Shown here one piece after another: positions 31,752 through 37,637 of a DNA stretch of 64,000 bases. Location of the stretch: assembly GCF_002787055.1 (NCBI RefSeq), contig NZ_CP024808.1, positions 186,001 through 250,000 of the forward strand. Reading direction: 5' to 3'. The first letter of the stretch is position 1. The number at the start of each line of letters is the position of its first letter. The position numbers and the translations under genes are program-made. Source of the stretch: Candidatus Nitrosotenuis aquarius. Its GTDB lineage: Archaea > Thermoproteota > Nitrososphaeria > Nitrososphaerales > Nitrosopumilaceae. Under the pieces are notes generated by a model. It ran no database searches and was not told where the DNA came from. It saw nothing but the letters and a program-made list of their open reading frames with translations.

Positions 31752-31889
31752 ATGGGAAAACACATGTTATTGGAAAATACTACTTCGTTGTGGTTTTCCA
31801 CCGTGTTCTCGTCTGTTTTGTTTGGTATGGTATTGATTGGCTCTAAATATACACAAAAAATTTGTTCGCGGTTTATGAGGAATTATTGA
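31752..31889 (+). CDS. small single-pass membrane protein, 45 aa
   Basis: MGKHMLLENTTSLWF leads into one hydrophobic helix (STVFSSVLFGMVLIG) and a basic tail, KYTQKICSRFMRNY. It lies in the 294-base gap between the secreted protein and the MEDS regulator; a TATA-like TTAAATAATATT sits near 31685-31696. The rest of the gap (31589-31751) shows only A+T-rich promoter-like sequence. Its end overlaps the MEDS gene by seven bases. Confidence 0.45.
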   Translation: MGKHMLLENTTSLWFSTVFSSVLFGMVLIGSKYTQKICSRFMRNY

Positions 31890-32677
31890 ATATAATCTAA
31901 ACCCATCTTGTGTAAAAATGAACTGATGCTATCGAATTTATTCACAAATTCTCTTCCTTTATCGGTTATAGTTAGGGGGTCTCTTTGAATTAATTTTCTT
32001 TCTCTCATCTCATCAAGGTATTTGGTAAATTTATCATATGATAGATTACTCTTACCTTGAATTCTTGTCTGAACTGCATTTTCACCTGCTTCGCCTATTG
32101 CAACAAGTATGTCGAAATAGATTTCCAACTTGTTTCGTCTAAGTTGTTTTAGCGGTCTTGATGTTTCTTTGATTATGTCTGAGTGAAAGTCGTACAATCT
32201 ACCTCGGCTTTCTGGATTTAGGATGCCGATTGACTCTGACATGTATGCACATAATGCTGTGATTGGCAAATCAAACCCCATTCCTAATATTTTTTCACAT
32301 TCAAAGAATCTTTCCACATGGTCGTCTCTGAAAAATACTGTCTTATCTCCAAAAATCCTTATCCCAGTTTTTTTATCGTCTTTTGCCTGTTTTACGATAT
32401 CGTGCATTCTATTCAATAAATCATTAGAATCAAATTTGTCCTTTGGGAAATACCACTTGTTAGAATTCAAAATGACTGCGTTTTTTTCTTTTTCAAGTTT
32501 TTTCAAATCTATTCTGTAGTTTTTTTCCATTTGCTGTTTGAAGCTATTCTCCTCATCGTCTATGAGTATGATGATCTCATTTTGTTTGATACCTTCGATT
32601 AGGAATTCAGATGCATGTTTTATTTTTGATTCGAGATTAGAATAAATTAGTAAATTATGAACATTTTCTAATCCCAC
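31883..32677 (-). CDS. MEDS-domain sensor with C-terminal winged helix
   Basis: 264 residues. The first 160 (HNLLIYSNLESKIKHASEFL, QNEIIILIDDEENSFKQQ, GIRIFGDKTVFFRD, LPITALCAYMSESIG) match the MEDS/DcmR-type sensory domain, a RecA-like fold found in methanogen and methylotroph regulators. The C-terminal 80 residues (FDILVAIGEAGENAVQTRI, YDKFTKYLDEMRERKLI, LTITDKGREF) are a winged helix. Probably a soluble transcription regulator. It begins the A+T-rich block and is followed upstream by the seven-helix protein on the same strand. Confidence 0.78.
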   Translation of the reverse strand: MGLENVHNLLIYSNLESKIKHASEFLIEGIKQNEIIILIDDEENSFKQQMEKNYRIDLKKLEKEKNAVILNSNKWYFPKDKFDSNDLLNRMHDIVKQAKDDKKTGIRIFGDKTVFFRDDHVERFFECEKILGMGFDLPITALCAYMSESIGILNPESRGRLYDFHSDIIKETSRPLKQLRRNKLEIYFDILVAIGEAGENAVQTRIQGKSNLSYDKFTKYLDEMRERKLIQRDPLTITDKGREFVNKFDSISSFLHKMGLDYIQ

Positions 32678-32708
32678 TTCCTTATTGTGTGGTTTTTATA
32701 GATAAATC

Positions 32709-33413
32709 TTAGCTTTGAATTTTAGTAGTTGATATGCCTGCTTTATTCTTGACAAAAACTGACCAAACCAAAATGAATAATCCTACATCTCTTAATATGT
32801 TGGATGCAATCCTTGCAGCAACACTACCGTCGATTGAAAAAATTAACACCGAAAATTGACCCATTAGGAGAATCATAAATGCAAAGGGGACATGAATTGG
32901 ACCATTCTTTTGAGCTACATATTGTAATGAAGATTTTACTATGTATGCAAGTATGATTACATTGAATAGCCTGAATAAAAAGTTGGATTGATTGGCTATT
33001 GTTGGGCCAGGTAATTGCATTGTGATGTTGGTCAAAAATAACACAATTCCAGTCATGATGAATGCCGCAATTCCAATCTTTAACAAGGGAATTTGTTGAT
33101 CTTGTTTGCTACGATAATGATATGTTAATGCAATAAAAACAAAACCAGCTGATAGAAAAATCAACCGATACCAGTACAGTAAGTTATACTGACTTGATTC
33201 AAGAATTGGCCCAAATGTTGCTGTTATTAGCAAGAAAAAATCACCAAGAGCTATACTTGCAAAACCAATGACGAGTCCTAGCAAAAATTGACTCTGTGCG
33301 ATTTTGTACATTTTAAATGACTGCCCGGCAAAAATGCTTGCCAAAACAATTGAAATTATGCTTGTGGGCAGCAATACATGTGCAAGTGCAGAGTGATCAA
33401 TCAACAACTCCAT
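32709..33413 (-). CDS. seven-helix membrane protein
   Basis: 234 residues with seven hydrophobic segments (for example TSIISIVLASIFAG, QFLLGLVIGFASIALGDFF, LIFLSAGFVFIAL, IGIAAFIMTGIVLFL) and a short cytoplasmic tail. This resembles free-standing sensory membrane modules of archaeal kinases, with no output domain attached. Same strand as and 31 bases upstream of the MEDS regulator, divergent from the two-component operon at 33529. A receptor role is inference. Confidence 0.65.
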   Translation of the reverse strand: MELLIDHSALAHVLLPTSIISIVLASIFAGQSFKMYKIAQSQFLLGLVIGFASIALGDFFLLITATFGPILESSQYNLLYWYRLIFLSAGFVFIALTYHYRSKQDQQIPLLKIGIAAFIMTGIVLFLTNITMQLPGPTIANQSNFLFRLFNVIILAYIVKSSLQYVAQKNGPIHVPFAFMILLMGQFSVLIFSIDGSVAARIASNILRDVGLFILVWSVFVKNKAGISTTKIQS

Positions 33414-33528: not shown

Positions 33529-33900
33529 ATGTCGAATTCACAAAAAAAAGTACTCGTCATAGACGATAATGAAAGCATAACGAAATTATTGGCTAGTTAT
33601 CTAAAAATTAAAAAACATGATTGTGTTTATACAAACAATTCTATCACGGGCCTAAGTTTAATCCAGCAGCAGCAATTTGATGTCGTTCTTCTTGATATTG
33701 CAATGCCTGAGTTATCGGGCCTAGAGATTCTAGAACAATTGGATAAAAAAAATAAAATCAGGGAAAATCGAATTTATCTATTTACGGCAACACCAAATCA
33801 TCGCTCAGAGATAGAAAAATGGCTAGGTCGCGGTCTTAGTGGTTATCTAAGAAAACCGATCAAACTACAAGATCTAGTACAGATTATTGAATCACAATGA
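33529..33900 (+). CDS. single-domain response regulator
   Basis: 123 residues. D12-D13 in LVIDDNESITK, phospho-acceptor D56 in VVLLDIAMPELSG, the Thr of YLFTATPN and the Lys of YLRKPIKL complete a functional receiver. First gene of a four-gene operon with the membrane protease and two kinases; eight bases separate it from the protease start. Phosphorylation by one of these kinases is likely but not shown. Confidence 0.9.
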   Translation: MSNSQKKVLVIDDNESITKLLASYLKIKKHDCVYTNNSITGLSLIQQQQFDVVLLDIAMPELSGLEILEQLDKKNKIRENRIYLFTATPNHRSEIEKWLGRGLSGYLRKPIKLQDLVQIIESQ

Positions 33901-33908
33901 TGATGTGA

Positions 33909-34853
33909 ATGGATGACCACAGACACATACTAAATGAAAAAGAACAGGAGAAAATTCTTCTTGAAGCAAACATCCAAGAGCTTGACAATGAGGCCCAAAA
34001 ACTAAGAGCGAAAACACAAGATCTTGAAAAAAATCTCGATCAAAAAATACATCAATGTAATGAATTAGAGCAAGAAAAGATCCTTCTTGTAGAAAACATA
34101 CACCAAAATCGTTTCACAAAAAAACATTATTTATTGATAGTAGCCATCTCTGCTTTCATAATACCTGTCGTTGTATTTTCTACCCCACTAAAATCGTACG
34201 AGTCTGAATTAACATCAAAATACGTAATAGAAAATTTACGTGGAGATACAATTGACACATGGATCGCTTGGAAAATTCCAGACGGCACGGCTCTGGATGT
34301 GAATATAATTGGTGAAGACAAAATTTCTTCGGATAAAATTACCGCAATAAAGAATTCGATTTTATCTGATGCCGTACTGGAAATTGATGACTCTCTTTTA
34401 CATAAGGGTCCTAAGGGAATTGTTTCAAAATACTATGATGGGTGGAAAGGAGCATTAGTGAAAGCTTCAGAAACTCCAACATCATTACATATCCCAACAA
34501 AATTCAGTATTATTCAGTCAAATACTGGAGAAGGCGATATTATAATAAAACTAACAAATGAGCGAAATACTGATGGTTATACTGGATATACAAAATCTGT
34601 TGTAGAGGATAATCAAATTCTAAAATCCACCATAACGATATACAACGTGGACAATCTGACCGTAGATGAATTAAGCACAATAGCCAGACATGAATTTGGA
34701 CATGCGTTAGGCCTTGCACATTCTACTGCTCCAGAAGACCTAATGGCGCCCACAATCATATCTGCGTATCCATACATATCTGAATGCAATATTGACGCAA
34801 TTGTCTCACTGTATGATGGAAATCAATCTGGCCGCGTGAGATGTGAAAAATGA
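33909..34853 (+). CDS. membrane-anchored metzincin metalloprotease with cytoplasmic coiled coil
   Basis: 314 residues. Residues 8-65 form a coiled coil with the repeated phrase EQEKILL (12-18 and 54-60). A membrane helix follows (73-91, HYLLIVAISAFIIPVVVF), then an outside domain ending in the zinc motif HEFGHALGLAH (H261, E262, H265, H271) and a Met-turn DLMAP, the matrixin/archaemetzincin-like signature. The segment NLRGDTIDTWIAWKIPDGTA begins the catalytic fold. It overlaps the Cache kinase by four bases. A protease between a receiver and two kinases is unusual; substrate unknown. Confidence 0.82.
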   Translation: MDDHRHILNEKEQEKILLEANIQELDNEAQKLRAKTQDLEKNLDQKIHQCNELEQEKILLVENIHQNRFTKKHYLLIVAISAFIIPVVVFSTPLKSYESELTSKYVIENLRGDTIDTWIAWKIPDGTALDVNIIGEDKISSDKITAIKNSILSDAVLEIDDSLLHKGPKGIVSKYYDGWKGALVKASETPTSLHIPTKFSIIQSNTGEGDIIIKLTNERNTDGYTGYTKSVVEDNQILKSTITIYNVDNLTVDELSTIARHEFGHALGLAHSTAPEDLMAPTIISAYPYISECNIDAIVSLYDGNQSGRVRCEK

Positions 34854-36844
34854 GGGTTACTACCAAAACATATTTGGCATTTTTGGGCATATGTGTGGCC
34901 TTTCTTGTTAGTGGAGTTTTTTTGATCGTACAAACTGAAAAGATGACTAAAGAGACAATAGCCAATAATTATCAAGTTCGAGCAAAGATCCTTGCAAATT
35001 CTATAGATCATATAATACATGAAAAAATCTCATCATTTGAAAGATTTCAAGAAAAACAAGCTATACATCCCATGAAATCATCAAACGAAGAATTTTCCCA
35101 GTTTGCGGACGTTTCCGAGTACATAAAACAAATTGACAGTACGTGGAATTCACAAAATTCTGTTCATGCAGAAGCAATAACTCGTAATGATTTTTCAAAT
35201 GTTCTTGTGGATCAGGCCTCGTACTACAATAAAGCTTGGGATTTTAGCACTGTACAGGAAAATACCTCGTTTATTAAAGAAATAATCATGACAAATTCCT
35301 ATGGAGCAACGATAGCAGCAACTAACAAACCAAGTGATTATCGTCAAGATGATGAAAAGTGGTGGAATGAAGCACGTAATGTGGGATATTATGTTGATGA
35401 CATATACTACGATGAAAGCAGTAAAACCGATGCAATTGCAATCTCATTGGCAATAAATGATGATCAGGGAAATTTTGTAGGTGTTGCAAAATATGTGCTT
35501 GATCCTTTAGCAATCTCTTACCCGCTTCAAGAAGCAATATCAGTTTCCAAATACAACACCACCAAATATTATCTTCTCACGAATGATGGCAAAACAATTC
35601 ATTCTAATTATTTTGATGTGGGTCACAGTGTGCCATCTGAGAGTTTTTTTGATAAAATAATTAATTCTGAAGGATACGTTGATAGTAAATTATCTGATGG
35701 TACAGAAATTTTACTTGTATATACAAAAACTGCTAATCTCGTTAACTCTTCTAATTTGAACTGGATAGTGGGAATTAGCATAGACAATACAGAAATTATG
35801 GAGCAAGTCTTGCCTTTGATTAATAATGTAAGTCTATCATTGGTGATAATTTTTGTATCCGTGTCTGTAATCGTATTTGTTATATCTAGAACTAATCATA
35901 ATAAAATCGCACAGATACGAAAAATTGCAAATCAAATTTCAAATGGAAATCTAGATGAAGTTTCACAGTTGGAAGGAAATGACGAATTTGCAGAAATCAG
36001 TGGATATTTTGACAGAATACGAAGATCACTTAAATGTCAACTTGAAACAATCCGCCAAAATGAATATCAAATTAAAGACCATCTGGATCATGTAAAAAGA
36101 CTAATTCAGCAAAAAGATGAGTTTGTATCTTTGATGGCTCATGAACTGAAAACTCCACTTGTTCCGATATTGGGACACGTAGAATTACTCAAAGAGATTT
36201 CCACATACGACAACGACCAACTAGAATCCATGGATGAAATAACAAAAAATGCTAATAGGATAGAGTCACTAGTTAATGATTTACTAGACGCACAAAAACT
36301 TGATTGCGGTAAAATGAAAATACACAAGACAAAATTCAAAGTGACCTCTCTTCTTTTTGATGCATATCAGGAATTTGTTGCGGTTGCCAAGAAAAAGAAT
36401 ATTCAATTTGAAATAAAAGATGACACCAATGATGCAGCTATAGAAAGTGACTTTCAGAGACTTTCTCAAGTATTGAGAAATCTCTTACTAAATTCATTTG
36501 ATTTTGTAAACCACGATGGGGGCAAAATATTGCTCACTGCATTATTGAATGGTGACAATGTTGTGATTAGCGTAATGGATAATGGTATTGGAATCAGTAA
36601 AGAAAACCTCTCAAAATTATTTACTAAATTCTATCAAATAGACTCCTCAATAAAGCGGAGTCATGGTGGAACTGGACTGGGTCTTGTTATTTGTAAAGGC
36701 ATAGTGGAATTATTGGATGGAAACATCAAAATCACAAGCGAGAAGAATCTTGGGACTACCGTGTCGATTACTTTGCCCTTGATGCAAAAGAAAGCCACTG
36801 ATAATTCTAAATCAAAACCCATACTGCAATTATCTGAGAGATGA
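34850..36844 (+). CDS. transmembrane sensor histidine kinase with Cache and HAMP domains
   Basis: 664 residues. Membrane helix 7-26; extracytoplasmic double-Cache-like domain about 30-320 (IIMTNSYGATIAATNKPSDY, EKWWNEARNVGYYVDDIYYD, GNFVGVAKYVLDP); second membrane helix about 325-347; HAMP linker; HisKA with H431 in SLMAHELKTPLVPI; HATPase with NLLLNSFDFVN, VMDNGIGIS and GGTGLGLVICKGIVE. Cache domains bind small ligands such as amino or organic acids. Starts inside the protease stop (ATGA). Confidence 0.9.
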   Translation: MRVTTKTYLAFLGICVAFLVSGVFLIVQTEKMTKETIANNYQVRAKILANSIDHIIHEKISSFERFQEKQAIHPMKSSNEEFSQFADVSEYIKQIDSTWNSQNSVHAEAITRNDFSNVLVDQASYYNKAWDFSTVQENTSFIKEIIMTNSYGATIAATNKPSDYRQDDEKWWNEARNVGYYVDDIYYDESSKTDAIAISLAINDDQGNFVGVAKYVLDPLAISYPLQEAISVSKYNTTKYYLLTNDGKTIHSNYFDVGHSVPSESFFDKIINSEGYVDSKLSDGTEILLVYTKTANLVNSSNLNWIVGISIDNTEIMEQVLPLINNVSLSLVIIFVSVSVIVFVISRTNHNKIAQIRKIANQISNGNLDEVSQLEGNDEFAEISGYFDRIRRSLKCQLETIRQNEYQIKDHLDHVKRLIQQKDEFVSLMAHELKTPLVPILGHVELLKEISTYDNDQLESMDEITKNANRIESLVNDLLDAQKLDCGKMKIHKTKFKVTSLLFDAYQEFVAVAKKKNIQFEIKDDTNDAAIESDFQRLSQVLRNLLLNSFDFVNHDGGKILLTALLNGDNVVISVMDNGIGISKENLSKLFTKFYQIDSSIKRSHGGTGLGLVICKGIVELLDGNIKITSEKNLGTTVSITLPLMQKKATDNSKSKPILQLSER

Positions 36845-36851
36845 TCGATAA

Positions 36852-37637
36852 ATGAAATCGCAAGAAAATGTCAAACACAAAATCAAGGAGCTTGAACAAG
36901 AAAAAATGCTCCTCGCAGAACTGAATCTGTACCTAGACGAAAAAAGAGACATTGAGGTCAATGAGTTTCTGCAAGTTGTATCTCACGAACTCAAAACTCC
37001 GTTGGTGCCAATCATGACAAATCTGGATCTGATCTTACGGCATGATTCAATAAACCTCACTGACAAACAAAGGAAATATCTGTCTGAGATAAGTGCAAAT
37101 GTCGCATTTCTCTCACAGATTATAAAGAATTTACTTGATGCGAAAAAATTTGCTTTTGGTGAAATCATAATAAGTAAACAGCAAGCCGACTTGAATGAGA
37201 TAATTAGAAATGTAATGCATATGATGAGACAATCGTATCCAAACATTCCCACAATTACTTGTGATGCACAACAAAAAATTCCAATAATGTGCGACGTATC
37301 TAGAATAACACAAGTGATCTTTAATTTATTGAAAAATAGCGTAGAATCAACTACTGTTGATGGATTGATAGTGGTGAATGTTTTGAATGATGAGGACATT
37401 GTAACTATTTCTGTTTCTGATGATGGTGTAGGAATAAGTCAAGATCGTATGAATGATCTTTTCAAAATGTTTTACCAATCAGATATGTCTACTACTAGGG
37501 AAAAAAACGGACTTGGTTTGGGCTTGTATTTGTGTAAAAAAATTATTGAAGCACATGGGGGTACAATCTGGGCTAAGAGCGAACTAGGTGTTGGGACCAC
37601 AATTACATTTGTACTTCCCAAAGGGATTATTCAGTAG
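36852..37637 (+). CDS. soluble histidine kinase with coiled-coil N terminus
   Basis: 261 residues. Residues 8-35 are a coiled coil containing ELEQEKMLLAEL, matching the EQEKILL phrase of the protease two genes upstream. Phospho-acceptor H45 in QVVSHELKTPLVPI; HATPase motifs NLLKNSVES, VSDDGVGIS and GLGLGLYLCKKIIEAHGG. No membrane helix or sensor domain, so it is probably recruited by the coiled coil. Seven bases after the Cache kinase; last gene of the operon. Confidence 0.88.
   Translation: MKSQENVKHKIKELEQEKMLLAELNLYLDEKRDIEVNEFLQVVSHELKTPLVPIMTNLDLILRHDSINLTDKQRKYLSEISANVAFLSQIIKNLLDAKKFAFGEIIISKQQADLNEIIRNVMHMMRQSYPNIPTITCDAQQKIPIMCDVSRITQVIFNLLKNSVESTTVDGLIVVNVLNDEDIVTISVSDDGVGISQDRMNDLFKMFYQSDMSTTREKNGLGLGLYLCKKIIEAHGGTIWAKSELGVGTTITFVLPKGIIQ

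Follow-up and report, generated by a model that had tools for sequence, protein, structure and literature searches.

A membrane-anchored matrixin as candidate output of a two-component operon in Candidatus Nitrosotenuis aquarius

Here, we describe a four-gene operon of Candidatus Nitrosotenuis aquarius in which a stand-alone receiver and two histidine kinases flank a membrane-anchored zinc protease of the matrixin type (hereafter MP). The genome consists of one contig of 1,697,207 bp, and the stretch of 64,000 nt analyzed here (the window) comprises its positions 186001-250000. On balance, we consider it somewhat probable that the operon encodes a two-component pathway with the outside-facing protease as its output. 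This view draws on the domains and catalytic residues of the four proteins, on recurrent linkage of MP homologs to two-component system (TCS) genes, and on gene fusions in which a histidine-bearing signaling domain and the protease belong to the same polypeptide.

The operon and its products

The features of the operon are as follows:
33529..33900 (+): stand-alone receiver (REC-only response regulator), 123 aa, phospho-Asp D56; Response_reg, E 1.4e-21
33909..34853 (+): membrane-anchored matrixin protease MP, 314 aa; Peptidase_M10, MMP-20 as best solved relative, structural model and Foldseek; cytoplasmic coil 1-70, transmembrane (TM) helix about 74-92, catalytic domain about 105-314
34689..34721 (+): zinc site HEFGHALGLAH, MP residues 261-271; ligands conserved across 125 homologs
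34850..36844 (+): transmembrane histidine kinase with Cache-like outside sensor, HAMP, HisKA and HATPase_c, 664 aa; Pfam, dCache below cut-off
36852..37637 (+): soluble coil-HisKA-HATPase_c kinase, 261 aa, its N-terminal coil resembling that of MP; Pfam and coil searches

All four open reading frames (ORFs) lie on the plus strand, spaced in order by an 8 bp gap, a 4-bp overlap and a 7 bp gap, which bears out the original prediction of four tightly linked genes. That prediction had also assigned to the protease a cytoplasmic coil, one membrane helix and an outside HEFGHALGLAH motif with a Met-turn. These elements are all present: a 70-residue coil precedes a single membrane helix at about residues 74-92, with arginine and lysine on the helix's N-terminal side, from which the positive-inside rule predicts an inside N terminus and an outside C terminus. 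The active-site stretch RHEFGHALGLAHS spans residues 260-272 and the Met-turn DLM residues 277-279. MP scores 39.9 bits against Peptidase_M10, compared with a curated cut-off of 24 (E 5.2e-10), and its best solved relative is MMP-20 (2jsd; E 4.3e-9), a matrix metalloproteinase (MMP).

As to whether MP contains a folded metzincin domain, a check proposed at the outset, an AlphaFold2 model computed from 12 sequences (mean pLDDT, the predicted local distance difference test, 74.6) shows a confident catalytic core with a zincin fold. In this model, which is unreliable at residues 83-116, the coil and the membrane helix form one continuous helix (2-84), followed by the zincin fold. Foldseek agrees with the MMP assignment: all 50 matches listed are catalytic domains of MMPs or karilysin (probability 0.99-1.00), with TM-scores of about 0.5-0.6 to single-domain targets.

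For comparison, 120 homolog regions carrying 125 MP genes were fetched from genomes of the host's family (Nitrosopumilaceae-type). Nearly all of these proteins (122/125) match Peptidase_M10 at E<=1e-4. Residues H261, E262 and H265 are invariant in 125/125, H271 and M279 are conserved in 121/125 each, and a C-terminal cysteine pair (C293, C312) is invariant throughout. A propeptide with a cysteine switch is a feature of animal MMPs, and bacterial matrixins such as karilysin do not require one. The segment from membrane helix to active site is free of cysteine in 124/125 homologs and contains one in a single sequence, and the MP family therefore lacks a cysteine switch. D113 (Asp in 102/125) was considered as a possible aspartate switch, a role that is not claimed here, since this residue lies in the unreliable part of the model.

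The receiver aligns with related receivers at the acidic pair D12/D13, at D56 and at K109, and according to Pfam consists of the REC domain only, without the output domain (mostly DNA-binding) of usual regulators. In both kinases, HisKA and HATPase_c score above the Pfam cut-off and the H, N and G boxes are readable. The match of the transmembrane kinase to dCache_1 is significant (33.8 bits, E 3.4e-8) yet under the Pfam cut-off of 45 bits, and its HAMP match is weak; close orthologs of this kinase are absent from the family, the best full-length match reaching 35% identity. Upstream and divergent from the operon (window 31883-33413, minus strand) are genes for a 234-aa multi-pass membrane protein and a MEDS-winged-helix regulator; together these may constitute a second signaling unit that shares the intergenic region with the operon.

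Recurrent linkage and domain architectures

How general is the association? We scored adjacency as an immediately neighboring receiver or kinase gene on the same strand within 300 bp, using as control 439 genes of >=200 aa in 40 stretches of 20 kb from 12 complete relative genomes; the gene order of the homolog regions comes from mechanical ORF calls, and mechanical gene starts, draft contigs and kinship among the sequences limit these context data. Asked for its co-occurrence with such genes, MP adjoins a receiver or kinase in 85/125 homologs vs 2/439 control genes, a comparison whose Fisher value overstates independence, because the homologs are related, and is not a true probability. A receiver is found immediately upstream of MP in 54 cases and immediately downstream in 21, a kinase immediately downstream in 24 and immediately upstream in 5. 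TCS-linked MPs are spread over several clades of the MP tree, a quick tree with weak deep branches, in which the window's MP forms a long single branch whose nearest sequence by path is a response regulator-linked copy (L039). A linkage peculiar to this genome is rejected, as the receiver-MP association recurs in homologs. With most homologs TCS-linked and an MMP fold in the model, the original proposal of a protease built into a two-component pathway is supported.

MP matches occur in 113/250 genomes of the host's family. A wider spread among archaea was rejected, since every match listed at E<=1e-12 from a survey of 400 genomes drawn from the class lay inside that family. Among the matches listed in a collection scan, close relatives belong to Nitrosarchaeum, Nitrosopumilus, Nitrosotalea and other Thaumarchaeota, and those outside the host's family mostly cover the active site only. 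A viral origin of MP was rejected: viral contigs yielded no close relative, their weak matches lying mostly over the active site.

The receivers next to MP are mostly stand-alone (66/75 are <=165 aa), and their phospho-Asp is kept in 74/76 aligned rows, the window's receiver included. Among 58 linked kinases (counting the window's two), dCache_1 is found in 25, CHASE3 in six and CHASE in two, all of them outside sensors; one further kinase each carries an SSF transporter domain or MASE3. The former, at L085:3874-6540 (-), is a histidine kinase adjoining MP with a sodium:solute symporter (SSF) domain.

Four further arrangements accompany the coil-TM-MP architecture of the window, which is the commonest. 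First, 17 proteins carry a Pfam HisKA (DHp) domain N-terminal to the coil (HisKA-coil-TM-MP); none has an ATPase domain, the phospho-acceptor histidine is kept in 16/17, and the gene order is kinase-receiver-MP in 12/17. An AlphaFold2 model of such a fusion was of low confidence (pLDDT 68; predicted TM-score, pTM, 0.39) and was set aside for fold comparison. Second, in a split form (L036 and L042), a DHp-only protein of 131-133 aa is encoded between receiver and MP, and the tree places the corresponding MPs among the fusions. Third, L125 and L148 encode Cache-TM-linker-TM-MP, with an N-terminal dCache and no kinase part or other recognized output. Fourth, multi-TM-MPs occur in divergent pairs (L146, L149-L151), one partner often being without the third zinc histidine. 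In every architecture seen, the protease is the C-terminal part, the usual position of an output.

Two DHp sequences have their phospho-acceptor histidine replaced (L086:5206-6471, NDELRNP; L118:4859-5251, ADKLRNP) and are possibly phosphorylation-dead. As for the divergent multi-TM pairs, the full HExxHxxGxxH is missing in one partner of each pair at L146, L149, L150 and L151.

A shared coil provides a further connection between protease and kinases. MP operons encode eight short DHp-type proteins, some of which begin with the ELEQEK coil of the window's soluble kinase, and the MP set contains the ELEQEK motif in 14 ORFs and the kinase set in three, compared to 0/2029 other ORFs. When the coil of the soluble kinase served as query, ten MPs were recovered at E<=1e-3 along with several kinases, with 2/903 other genes at E<=0.1. 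The MP coil alone reached kinases at E 0.009 and worse, and taking the coil as proof of contact was accordingly rejected.

Output, sensor or bystander

Together, these observations suggest the following pathway. The Cache kinase would detect an outside ligand and phosphorylate the stand-alone receiver; the receiver, the soluble coil-HisKA kinase or both would then act on MP via its cytoplasmic coil. Since a single unbroken helix comprises both the coil and the membrane segment in the model, a change inside could be passed to the matrixin domain outside, presumably activating rather than inhibiting it, and this domain would then cut a surface protein. Family-wide, the order would be sensor kinase, receiver, DHp or coil partner and transmembrane protease, with the soluble coil-HisKA kinase standing in for the DHp protein in the window. 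The DHp of the fusions, which lies N-terminal to the membrane helix and has no ATPase, could for that reason accept a phosphoryl group or bind the receiver, rather than start the signal. The more specific proposition, a His-Asp phosphorelay that ends outside the cell by having a DHp or coiled-coil module mechanically switch a transmembrane matrixin, such that the TCS output is the cutting of surface proteins, falls a little short of being probable in our estimation.

Is the protease the output of this system or its sensor? The original prediction had left both open. The protease is C-terminal in every architecture seen, Cache can be fused to it directly without any other recognized effector, the DHp of the fusions precedes the membrane helix and has no ATPase, and the split DHp-MP genes point the same way. 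For these reasons we lean toward output, the inside-to-outside direction being our reading of the architectures.

Several observations weigh against this pathway, in addition to the relatedness of the homologs mentioned above. About 40 of the 125 homologs have no adjacent TCS gene. Among them is a pyrB/CBS-linked clade of about 16 MPs, with a second MP of this very genome as a member, which shows that the family also has a TCS-free role. The window's MP has no HisKA domain, and hence it is gene order and the coil that tie it to the receiver and the kinases. The latter is weak support, not proof, of homology or contact, because coils resemble each other easily. Furthermore, no surface-protein gene adjoins the operon in the window.

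The second MP (L064:5280-7148; near 1341782-1342645 of the genome) is flanked by a pyrB-like aspartate carbamoyltransferase gene on one side and a gene weakly matching CBS on the other. Two more matrixin genes of this genome (G000:C1:511661-512041 and 306511-306801) are distantly similar to the MP family. Elsewhere in the family, a gene for a large secreted Fn3 and copper-binding protein lies 9 bp downstream of MP (L036:3016-5175), and one for a large secreted LamG/Ig surface protein, likewise downstream, overlaps an MP gene (L151:1-2274); their products are possible MP substrates.

Among the alternatives, the one that fares best, albeit unlikely, casts the protease as the input: it would cut a target outside, its own ectodomain or the Cache domain of the kinase, and its coil would signal the cut or a bound substrate inward to both the receiver and the soluble kinase. 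The soluble kinase's coil does resemble that of MP, a coil beside a kinase could feed it, and the single helix through the membrane permits either direction. However, sensor kinases have their sensor ahead of HisKA, whereas in the fusions a HisKA without ATPase comes before the coil, the TM helix and the protease, and the Cache-MP fusions have no recognized cytoplasmic output to which a signal could be handed. Marginally less plausible still is that the TCS and the protease are merely co-expressed for one physiological response, such as surface or peptide use, without direct signaling between them. A polycistronic layout would by itself yield the linkage, and the pyrB-linked clade illustrates that MP can work without TCS neighbors, but the HisKA-MP fusions, the split DHp-MP genes and the common coil motif imply that the two are physically coupled, at least where these features occur.

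We regard as very improbable that MP is no active enzyme but serves a receptor complex as a structural element or scaffold, its matrixin fold binding a peptide. Loss of the third zinc histidine in some multi-TM members would allow for binding without cutting within the family; against this, H261, E262 and H265 are kept in all homologs and H271 in 121, and purifying selection on the catalytic glutamate argues for activity. Finally, chance or hitch-hiking in TCS-rich regions is rejected: the 12 complete Nitrosopumilaceae-type genomes do hold 10-34 receivers each, which sometimes cluster, but the contrast to control genes, the spread over several clades and the fusions speak against it.

Implications and known systems

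What would a pathway with protease output mean for the biology of these organisms? It suggests that ammonia-oxidizing archaea control surface-protein cutting by phosphorylation inside the cell, besides changes in gene expression. If the proposed direction is true, this would be a two-component pathway acting outside the cell without transcription, and it would tie environmental sensing to surface remodeling in ammonia oxidizers, organisms that gather ammonium on the cell surface (PMC11153153). REC-only regulators are common in archaea and, in a 2018 census of archaeal TCSs, made up about 75% of thaumarchaeal regulators (PMC5847659). The receiver described here is of this stand-alone type. Neither protease nor peptidase is mentioned anywhere in the census's main text, and it is such an output that the present locus offers (PMC5847659). 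The MP family represents a concrete output candidate, a cell-surface zinc protease, for the stand-alone receivers that account for roughly three quarters of regulators in these archaea (PMC5847659), and a phosphorelay to a matrixin could be one missing output of many of them.

In the open-access literature searched, we found no earlier description of the HisKA-coil-membrane helix-matrixin layout, nor, by title and abstract, of a matrixin, metzincin or metalloprotease joined to a TCS, although this does not prove the layout to be new. A matrixin gene was noted in a sponge symbiont and related to the host's protein matrix (PMC6697440), and a 2025 MMP phylogeny names Nitrosopumilales in passing (PMC12587646).

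Individual parts of the system are nonetheless reminiscent of known ones. MP shares HExxHxxGxxH, Met-turn and catalytic fold with the matrixins (Peptidase_M10), bacterial karilysin included, and differs from them by its N-terminal anchor with cytoplasmic coil or HisKA, the missing cysteine switch and the invariant pair C293/C312. Spo0B and ChpT are DHp-based phosphotransfer proteins, in which a dimerizing, histidine-bearing DHp functions without kinase activity of its own. The same use of DHp is seen here, except that it is either a small stand-alone protein or fused to a coil, TM helix and outside protease. In Caulobacter, the stand-alone receiver CpdR controls proteolysis via the cytoplasmic ClpXP (PMC8973945); in the pathway proposed here, a single-domain receiver would likewise have proteolysis as its output, with a protease that is membrane-bound and outside. 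The nearest working analogue, although its parts are unrelated, is LapD-LapG of Pseudomonas, which exerts inside-out control over periplasmic proteolysis (PMC3032545, PMC3032553). As we propose for MP, a cytoplasmic signal acting via a membrane protein sets the proteolysis of a surface adhesin outside. LapD, however, reads cyclic di-GMP and recruits a separate protease, and according to Pfam none of the four operon proteins contains a GGDEF-EAL receptor or LapG-type domain; MP instead combines membrane protein and zinc matrixin in one polypeptide, partnered by HisKA, coil and REC.

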